Below, piece after piece: positions 5,951-8,872 of a stretch of 16,461 nucleotides of DNA. The notes under the pieces were generated by a model that ran no database searches, was not told the origin of the DNA, and saw only the letters and a program-made list of their open reading frames with translations. The position numbers and the translations under genes are program-made. The DNA lies in the NCBI GenBank assembly GCA_026988735.1, contig JALSKR010000261.1, positions 1-16,461 on the forward strand. The letters are read 5' to 3'. This DNA comes from Sulfurimonas sp. (GTDB taxonomy: Bacteria > Campylobacterota > Campylobacteria > Campylobacterales > Sulfurimonadaceae). Each line of letters starts with the position of its first letter. The stretch's first letter is position 1.

Positions 5951-7116
5951 TCCGCATTAATTTTGACATATTCATAACCCAAGTCACAGCCAAAGGCTGT
6001 GAACTTGCCCTCACCTATACCTAAATCACAAGAGATTGTAAAAGCTTCTCTTTTCATTATTTCAGCGGCTTTTTGTTCCATCTCTTCATCAAAATAGAGT
6101 TCTCCTCTGTCGTAAACACAGACATCTTCAAAAGAGATCTTTAAACGCTCTTCATCAGCTTCTGCCCCGCTTGCTCCAACTGTTGAAGCTATTCTGCCCC
6201 AGTTTGGATCTTCGCCATAGAGTGCTGTTTTGACAAGCAGAGAATTCGTCAGTGCTTTTGCAACTACTTCTGCTTCTTCATCATTTTTAGCACCAGATAT
6301 TTCATATGTCACAAGCTTTGTCGCACCCTCTCCATCTCGAACCATTTCCCGTGCTAAAAATCGCATAATATGATAGAGTGCTTCACTAAATGCTTCTTCA
6401 TGATATGCTCCGCTTTTTCCATTACTGAGCAACATCACTGTATCATTTGTAGAAGTATCTCCATCTACACTGGCTGCATTAAAAGTAGTTTTTACATGTA
6501 AATTAAGAATATCTTGCATTTGTTTTTTACTTACTTTTGCATCAGTCGTTATAAAACAAAGCATTGTTGCCATTGCAGGATTAATCATCCCCGCACCTTT
6601 TGCCATAGCACCTATATGAAAACTACTGCCATCTTCAAGTACAACTTTATAGGCAATCTGTTTTGAAAAGGTATCAGTTGTCATAATTGCACAAGCAGCT
6701 GCATTATTGTCTTTTTTTGTCAAATCAAAAAGTTTTGCTCCGGCAATTATCTTCTCTTTTGGCAGTCTGACACCGATTACGCCAGTAGAACTCATCACAG
6801 GATTGACAATTTCTTTAGGCAGAGTAGCCAAAATCTCATCTATATCTTTTATACCGGCTTTTCCAGTCATGGCATTGGCATTTTTTGAGTTAATCAATAC
6901 AAAATTTGTTTGAAACTCCCCTTTTGCTTTAAAATGACGTATTGGAGCTGCTGTCATTTTATTTGTTGTAAATGTAAAAGCTATTTCACATAAAGTATCG
7001 CTGTATACAAATGCCATATCCTTTGCATTGTTCGGTTTTAAGCCAGCACTGATACCATCTGCATAAAAACCTTCTGCTGCACAAACGCCACAATCAACTT
7101 TTATCAACTTATACAA
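5938..7116 (-). CDS. argJ: Bifunctional ornithine acetyltransferase / N-acetylglutamate synthase
   Basis: Transfers the acetyl group from N-acetylornithine to glutamate, recycling acetyl in arginine synthesis; many family members also make N-acetylglutamate from acetyl-CoA. The 392-residue precursor is expected to cut itself between Ala183 and Thr184 in [10 protein letters not shown], with Thr184 becoming the nucleophile of the beta chain. [17 protein letters not shown] is the conserved C-terminal block. The start appears to be TTG at 7116, with AAGGAG 7 nt upstream, overlapping the kch stop by 8 nt. It is the last gene of rpmB-kch-argJ. Bifunctionality is a family-level inference. Confidence 0.95.
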
Positions 7117-8255: not shown

Positions 8256-8444
8256 CTACGAATTTTTCTTAAGTGTGCGTAATTCTCTTGCAGAAATCTT
8301 AATCTTCTTCGTTGTACCATCTTCTAATGTAATACGAACTGTTCTTAGGTTTAATAAAAAACGACGCTTTGTTCTGTTTTTTGCATGAGAAACATTGTTC
8401 CCACTCATAGGGCCTTTGCCACTGATAGCACATCTTCTTGCCAT
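8256..8444 (-). CDS. rpmB: 50S ribosomal protein L28
   Basis: A 62-residue basic protein starting [20 protein letters not shown], the typical L28 N-terminus, then [12 protein letters not shown] and a C-terminal TLKKNS. L28 is part of the large ribosomal subunit. The ATG at 8444 has AAGGA 7 nt upstream. A longer in-frame TTG start exists at 8486, but its extra residues run into the inverted-repeat arm and are not family-like. It is the first gene of the rpmB-kch-argJ set. Its upstream region is occupied by the structured element from 8468 onward. Confidence 0.96.
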
Positions 8445-8467
8445 TTGAGTATCCTTGAATGATATTG

Positions 8468-8736
8468 AAGTGCCAGACCACAGCAAATGTCATAATGTAA
8501 TAAAAAGAGAGGTTACAAGATGCAAGGCAAAAGCTTGAAGGAACTACTAGTAGTTTCAAAAACTTTTAACGCTGTCAGATTGTGGTCTCTCTTTTTACCC
8601 GAAGGGCAAGTTTTTAAAAGGCTCATTTTCTGCGTTGAATTTCACTCAACAATGCTAGTATTGCTAAGTAAAACTCGCCTTGAAACTAAACCTTTTAAAA
8701 ATTGTTACATATGATATTTACTATGGTCTGGCACTT
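8468..8736. repeat. 269-nt structured element with terminal inverted repeats (MITE-like or structured RNA)
   Basis: The outer arms pair 8468-8500 with 8705-8736: the first 13 bp (AAGTGCCAGACCA) are perfect, and the whole arm has about 30 pairs, two mismatches and one bulge. Directly inside, 8501-8517 pairs fully with 8581-8597 (17 bp, three G-U on the plus strand). CCCGAAGGG at 8598-8606 forms a tiny hairpin. Then 8609-8621 pairs with 8691-8703 (13 bp, one G-U). The helices abut almost without spacers, giving a four-way junction. Each long arm carries a CTAG-centred palindrome (8542-8555 perfect, 8650-8663 near-perfect). No transposase, no significant ORF and no clear target-site duplication were found. 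It may be a non-autonomous mobile repeat, a structured RNA or a leader; only one copy is in the window. Confidence 0.75.
8492..8497 (-). promoter_or_regulatory. Candidate rpmB promoter inside the element's left arm
   Basis: On the minus strand the arm reads TTACATTATGAC, giving a -10-like CATTAT about 48 nt before the rpmB ATG, with the T-rich CTCTTTTTATTA just upstream. No other -10-like hexamer lies closer to rpmB. If used, the element supplies the promoter for rpmB-kch-argJ. The hexamer is imperfect. Confidence 0.35.
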
Positions 8737-8872
8737 AAAGTTGCGAATTGTATCAAATTAAAGCAAAACTGCAACTTAAGCCTGTTTGATTTTTTTGATA
8801 ATAAATTTTCTTTATTTGAATTTTATCTTATTCTAGTTAAAATATACAACATTCAACATAAAGCAGTAAAAT
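8737..8872 (+). other. Intergenic DNA between the element and the HDOD gene
   Basis: Very AT-rich. AAGTTGC at 8738-8744 and GCAACTT at 8771-8777 form a 7-bp inverted repeat with a long loop. Alternatively ATCAAA (8752-8757) pairs with TTTGAT (8785-8790), which runs straight into a T tract to 8796 and could be a weak terminator for plus-strand transcription through the element. Candidate -10 sequences for the downstream gene lie at 8838-8848. No gene is seen. Confidence 0.4.
8838..8848 (+). promoter_or_regulatory. Candidate -10 region for the HDOD/CheX operon
   Basis: The overlapping hexamers TAAAAT (8838-8843) and TATACA (8843-8848) lie 25-35 nt before the TTG start at 8873, after a long T-rich run. 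There is no clear -35. This is a weak call based on position and composition. Confidence 0.35.

Follow-up and report, generated by a model that had tools for sequence, protein, structure and literature searches.

A short mobile repeat between rpmB and an HDOD gene of Sulfurimonas carries two inverted copies of a conserved hairpin

The window analysed here is a stretch of 16,461 nucleotides from a Sulfurimonas sp., whose genome is available as a draft, 80% complete. In the window an element of 267 bp has rpmB on its left, on the minus strand, and an HDOD gene on its right, on the plus strand, and therefore lies between divergent genes. It is laid out as a nested palindrome, in the order outer arm, hairpin 1, CCCnnnGGG, hairpin 2, outer arm (Table 1). 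A reading made from the letters alone (the sequence-only reading) had described a structured 269-nt unit with little coding capacity and no transposase nearby; only short, mechanically called ORFs cross the 267 bp, and the 10 window proteins scanned contained no transposase domain. No Rfam family reached its gathering score in the whole window, and ARAGORN recognized no tRNA in it.

Table 1. Features of the element and its surroundings; positions are those of the window.
Feature	Position	Strand	Basis or remark
rpmB (ribosomal protein L28), downstream of the element	8256-8444	-	PF00830, E 3.3e-23
Left target-site copy	8467-8468		Now GA; TA expected from empty sites
Left outer arm / terminal inverted repeat, type A	8468-8500		First base is target site; fold, copies
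Mobile element proper, 267 bp (AGTGCCAGACC...GGTCTGGCACT)	8469-8735		Missing from 29 of 29 fetched orthologous loci; other copies
Hairpin 1, strand-specific module with conserved internal loop AAGGC/AACGnnG	8501-8600	+	R1 88.3 bits, E 6.2e-20 (this unit is one of the 61 model rows); covariation
CCCGAAGGG mini-hairpin, centre of the quasi-palindrome	8598-8606		Fold
Hairpin 2, opposite-strand homologue of hairpin 1	8604-8704	-	R1 49.7 bits, E 1.3e-9 (absent from the model rows)
Right outer arm / terminal inverted repeat	8705-8736		Last base is target site; fold, copies
Right target-site copy TA	8736-8737		Empty/filled comparison
Putative -10 box TACAAT of the rpmB promoter, outside the element	8747-8752	-	Conserved in rpmB loci

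The pairing was re-read from the sequence, and the helices of a four-way junction at 8468-8736 were present as the sequence-only reading had listed them. In the outer stem (8468-8500 with 8705-8736), whose arms of 32-33 nt are unequal by one base, 13 uninterrupted pairs are followed by two A-C and one G-T oppositions and by an interrupted inner end. The base of hairpin 1 (8501-8517 with 8581-8597) has 17 pairs including three G-T, and that of hairpin 2 (8609-8621 with 8691-8703) has 13 pairs including one G-T; CCC at 8598-8600 pairs with GGG at 8604-8606, and in most copies inspected both triplets are retained and the three-base loop is variable. Folded as RNA, positions 8468-8736 gave z-scores of -9.3 on the plus strand and -11.5 on the minus strand, and folded as DNA a z-score of -6.6 on the plus strand; in each case 0 of 200 shuffled sequences was as stable; that reading had not expected such packing by chance. 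Between copies the sequences of the arms vary, and their complementarity is kept, contrary to the refuting outcome named in the sequence-only reading (arms not conserved as pairs).

The 267-bp repeat is a non-autonomous, MITE-like mobile element. Of 60 genomes of the genus, 57 gave a match to the stretch around rpmB, and among the 30 loci fetched only that of the host carries the element. The closest genomes read GATATT(T)TAAAGTTGCG at the empty site; the filled site of the host reads GATATTGA, then the element (AGTGCC...GGCACT), then TAAAGTTGCG. Comparison of the two indicates that 267 bp (8469-8735) were inserted at a TA, the left copy of which has since been altered by one base. The 269-nt unit thus stands as a structure, and the mobile unit proper is two bases shorter. 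A TA target site is also that of MITEs derived from IS630/Tc1-mariner elements. AAGT...ACTT ends are present in 34 of 35 distinct type A/B copies, and 29 of those 34 are preceded by T and followed by A. A further insertion was captured in two genomes with 96%-identical flanks (loci L186 and L187): an additional element of the sister subfamily C, bordered left and right by TTAA, occurs in one of them, inserted precisely at the border of an older type A element; this filled/empty pair shows a 4-bp TTAA duplication. The repeat therefore has several generic features of a MITE, being short and noncoding, with terminal inverted repeats, a target duplication matched by an empty site, and scattered copies; the suggestion of a non-autonomous mobile repeat in the sequence-only reading was confirmed on the same grounds.

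BLASTN against the host genome returned four full-length copies including that of the window, to which the other three are 74-75% identical, and the covariance model described below placed the family at no fewer than nine loci of the same genome. At E<=1e-6, BLASTN with the element matched 14 of 60 genomes, namely the host and 13 of 36 other members of the genus, and 0 of 23 genomes outside the genus. The exact hairpin motif occurred in at least 116 stretches of named records; among the 80 motif matches listed, 55 were titled Sulfurimonas and the other 25 bore names such as Helicobacteraceae, Campylobacterales, Nitratifractor and Sulfuricurvum, which we take to belong to the same phylum. Plasmids, phages and viral contigs yielded no match at the thresholds used, phages having been queried with the window's element only. 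In genome G468, 17 of 23 end matches were an identical TAAGTACCTATCCAAAAAGAAC, some of them near contig edges, probably owing to a recent amplification that breaks the assembly.

Copies can decay after insertion, since hairpin 1 in one of the orthologous copies at L186 and L187 is short by 11 nt. At other sites only arms were seen, with the terminal repeats close together and the core gone (L178 70-116, L177 173-219, L176 214-275 and L174 298-336). Two other candidates were rejected: L059, considered as an element with an inserted gene, was read as pieces of two neighbouring elements around host genes, and L174, considered as a 1.1-kb IS, is a remnant and a second end flanking host genes.

For the core of the element, a covariance model (R1) was built from an alignment (A1) of 61 hairpin-1 units, that is, 64 collected units less L059, L141 and L148 (cut or deleted) and L075, plus the unit of the window. 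R1 matched hairpin 1 on the plus strand of the window and hairpin 2 on the minus strand, indicating that the two hairpins are homologous and inverted. The model was run over the window and 80 of the 116 loci L058-L173, and over a phylum sample of one genome per species, many of them drafts, with at most 10 candidates scored per genome; it matched 35 of 397 phylum genomes (host included) and 15 of the 68 genera sampled, often as a plus and a minus match separated by a few bases. In the copies of subfamilies C and D that were inspected, the second hairpin is of another kind, and R1 does not recognize it. At L063 (about 6877-7052, type D), hairpin 2 bears an extra nested stem-loop of some 50 bases.

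Across the 61 units, 93.9% of the cells of hairpin 1 are paired, and 28 of 36 pairs show changes on both sides. Cells changed on both sides numbered 593 against a shuffled mean of 182, with 0 of 500 shuffles as high, in a test that kinship among the units inflates; the covariation score was 0.674, and at most 0.165 when the helix was slid by 1-3 columns, a comparison that leans towards the unslid helix, the structure having come from the same alignment. The size of the effect is well beyond that of kinship and same-alignment bias. CTAC/GTAG occurs at the apex of the collected hairpins, in part because the search pattern required it; as that pattern set the apex of the units, invariance there carries no meaning.

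Wobble pairs were then counted by strand. The scoring treats G-T and A-C alike, and column pairs for the 61 units were taken from A1 with a wobble-allowing consensus structure. In the stem of hairpin 1 beside the conserved internal loop (the inner part of the lower stem) G-T outnumbered A-C by 93 to 3, and in the upper stem by 67 to 3; the outer half of the lower stem was unbiased (12 G-T, 21 A-C). A second set of 35 type A/B elements, obtained from 46 full-length matches above 200 bits by dropping identical cores, was read throughout on the plus strand. In these, hairpin 1 gave 45 G-T to 7 A-C in the lower stem and a mixed 85 to 57 in the upper stem, hairpin 2 gave 11 to 66 in the lower and 40 to 124 in the upper stem, and the outer arms gave 18 to 16, without strand bias. 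Hairpin 2 of subfamilies C and D (n = 12) gave 1 G-T to 26 A-C in its lower stem and a mixed 21 to 12 in its upper stem, and ten F-like pairs showed a weak bias (26 to 17 in hairpin 1, 26 to 33 in hairpin 2). From these counts the middle of hairpin 1 seems to be maintained as a plus single strand and that of hairpin 2 as a minus single strand. The outer arms appear to behave as double-stranded DNA palindromes do. As to the "structured RNA" offered by the sequence-only reading, covariation and strand-specific wobble support it for the inner hairpins, where RNA and single-stranded DNA both fit.

The ends around this core are of clearly different types. Comparison of 91 elements distinguished arms of the types AAGTGCC(A/T)GAC, AAGTACCTCTCC, AAGTAAGAGGGC, GGGCACCTCTAAAAACC, TTGAGACCTCTGA or TTGAACCCTCTGA, TTGCCA...CTTAAGCATACCAG, and ATACCAATCCC, with a few further types; in 88 of the 91 both arms form a long inverted repeat (score at least 38), the exceptions L042, L059 and L148 being deleted or cut. 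Four end types surround hairpin 1 in the host genome itself: type A, type C, the ATACCAATCCC type and a AAGTCCTTAGTC type. Target sites seem to differ with the type of end, being TA for type A and four bases for type C, and six ATACCAATCCC copies read by eye have a T-N-A target. The type E copies at L071, L088 and L168 have common inner arms (ACTTAAGCATACCAG), and their outermost bases vary yet stay complementary. Common hairpins within different ends suggest that the hairpins are a portable working part. Either the terminal ends evolve very fast together with their transposases, or the hairpin has passed between transposon families; in both cases the hairpin would be kept for its own sake.

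A probable source of mobility was found for one subfamily. An IS whose 342-aa transposase belongs to the IS5 family (DDE_Tnp_1; NF033581, E 4.8e-82) has ends that agree with those of subfamily C, GGGCACCTCTAAAAAC, at 15 of 16 positions, and this IS is likely to drive the subfamily C repeats. It is present at L175 315-1566 (G064 C9:8914-10165) with an uninterrupted 342-aa frame and ends GGGCATCTCTAAAAAC/GTTTTTAGAGATGCCC. R1 detected no hairpin module in the IS5-family IS with type C-like ends. For type A, searches with the end pattern returned element-length pairs and short remnants, and among the matches listed no pair about 1-2 kb apart around a transposase gene. No type A ends were present at the best inverted repeats of 15 examined loci (32 fetched) with PF13358 or PF01609. 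The IS630-type transposase domain PF13358 was found in 2 of 14 genomes, once over the cut-off, and not in the 80%-complete host; PF12762 was found in 1 of 14, in an element whose ends were likewise not of type A, and PF01609 in 7 of 14, six over the cut-off. In G014 an IS1595 transposase lies next to an AAGTGCC palindrome; it was rejected as the type A partner, as the IS to which it belongs carries ends of its own and a separate 8-bp duplication, with the palindrome outside. The duplication of this IS1595-family element (L221, about 1265-2325; G014 C51) reads TTACAGAA, and the element directly adjoins the type A-like palindrome.

The promoter block of rpmB is conserved. All 30 Sulfurimonas-type loci compared carry TAyAATTCGC upstream of rpmB; the motif is followed by AACTTT in 29 of 30, and is preceded by TTGnAG at a distance of 14-18 nt in 24 of 30; in the window the conserved promoter block occupies 8738-8785. 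A mechanical promoter scan did not include this promoter (8747-8752) among those listed. The element starts about 10 nt past the conserved -10 sequence and is thus probably inside the rpmB 5' leader, so that the rpmB transcript should enter it within a few bases of its start and read it on the minus strand. Across the family, none of 62 distinct elements is contained in an ORF of at least 90 codons; 29 lie in divergent, 28 in co-directional and 5 in convergent gaps, compared with 69 divergent pairs among 415 neighbouring gene pairs in the same loci, an enrichment that is modest and that the greater length of divergent gaps accounts for in part.

The explanation that we consider somewhat probable is a superfamily of MITEs which carries a strand-specific hairpin module that would act in RNA, is mobilised in trans and is tolerated in leaders. 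The terminal repeats would be cut by a DDE transposase supplied in trans, which in subfamily C could come from the IS5-family IS whose ends match. The hairpin would act as RNA, and since its two copies face opposite ways, a transcript arriving from either side would contain one correctly folded copy, nearest its 5' end. The element could then sit in leaders and promoter-proximal regions, here the rpmB leader, without shutting the gene off, for instance if the hairpin shielded the transcript, led to its processing or eased the passage of RNA polymerase. As the hairpin module outlasts changes of the terminal repeats, it behaves as a separate part, possibly passed between transposon types. More tentatively, and possible rather than probable, the hairpin may be an uncatalogued RNA module conserved in the Campylobacterota, a selfish or symbiotic passenger whose inverted pair protects the transcript and renders insertions harmless; were this so, transposons with unrelated ends would carry it, and antitermination, stabilisation or processing would be what makes the element successful.

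The same mobile element could instead use its hairpins as single-stranded DNA, each extruded on its own strand in replication or transposition and bound by a transposase or a host factor, a proposal that we regard as doubtful but worth keeping in view. G-T is the better-tolerated mismatch in DNA as well, so the preference over A-C also fits single-stranded DNA; hairpins on opposite strands suit a symmetric DNA process, and the strand-neutral outer arms and the excess stability in DNA folding are in keeping with it. However, 0 of 30 fetched Y1-transposase loci carry the module at E<=0.01, and PF01797, which has a match in 16 of the 30 genomes searched, has none in the host. The combination of terminal repeats and a target duplication points rather to double-strand (DDE) transposition, and a sequence-conserved internal loop with wobble pairs common beside it is more like an RNA motif. 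It is also conceivable that the structure is mainly a mutational by-product, in which template switching copies one arm of a palindrome onto the other with no selection for pairing. Between L186 and L187, four of eight substitutions amount to two perfect arm-to-arm compensations in the outer stem, even though one of the two copies has a broken hairpin 1, and the outer arms are free of strand bias; template switching is likely to contribute to these arms. As an account of the whole structure it is unlikely, for it would erase G-T and A-C alike and leaves unexplained both the 93 to 3 excess and its reverse in hairpin 2.

The position of the element between the rpmB promoter and start codon, together with its best fold on the minus strand, would suit a regulatory RNA leader belonging to rpmB. 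We give this almost no credence: other copies lie elsewhere, Rfam returned no match, and the uniform lack of the element from the 29 other fetched orthologous loci refutes a conserved ancestral leader. An element of REP/REPIN type, in which a Y1 tyrosine transposase (RAYT) mobilises a pair of inverted palindromes, is scarcely more credible, even though each unit has two inverted hairpins, the apex reads CTAC/GTAG (in part through the search pattern), a Y1 transposase match was obtained in 16 of 30 genomes, and GTAG and CGTC REP repeats are recorded in the related Sulfurovum sp. NBC37-1 in the part of PMC3733652 consulted. The host has no Y1 transposase match, the 30 Y1 loci fetched (from 34 matches listed) gave 0 module matches, and a module of about 100 nt with terminal repeats and target duplication stands against REPs of 20-40 bp (PMC3733652).

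A MITE with an RNA-acting hairpin module, as we favour, has counterparts among known systems. The Correia elements (CREE/NEMIS) of Neisseria also have a TA target site. Like the window element they are short MITEs beside genes, often immediately upstream, and their transcript is cut by RNase III at the terminal repeats; one lies just downstream of the mtrCDE promoter, according to the accessible text of PMC10969869. Compared by description, the paired inverted strand-specific module and the change of ends around a constant core would distinguish the window's family, and neither is described for Correia elements in that portion of PMC10969869. BOX and SPRITE of Streptococcus pneumoniae are repeats with potential T-box-like or terminator-like motifs, for which the same text, again compared by description, mentions no inverted duplicate of one module (PMC10969869). 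IS5-family ISs and MITEs resemble the present family in the subfamily C ends and the 4-bp duplication; the differences are that R1 recognizes no module inside the IS and that the window's element has type A ends and a TA site. In BIMEs, REPs occur in alternating orientation, so that REPINs and BIMEs, as outlined in excerpts of PMC2817692, share two inverted hairpins in one unit with the window element, which differs in its much longer hairpins, its terminal repeats with target duplication and the lack of any RAYT link found. The put RNA of phage HK022, a nascent RNA element that works in cis to suppress both pausing and termination (PMC9378689, in part), is of phage origin and is offered as an analogy for mechanism only, illustrating one way in which the module could protect a transcript. 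Among the titles and abstracts listed by searches of open-licence PMC papers, no such element was described for Sulfurimonas or its relatives.

MITEs are usually viewed as passive leftovers of insertion sequences. Here a hairpin spans 15 of 68 sampled genera while the ends differ widely, and this combination calls for a function of the hairpin separate from transposition. Such a function is testable on more than 100 natural insertions, many of them beside gene starts; some of the genera that carry them are in culture. If the core does shield transcripts, it would help to explain how these repeats are tolerated in compact genomes, and would represent a new class of portable RNA insulator.
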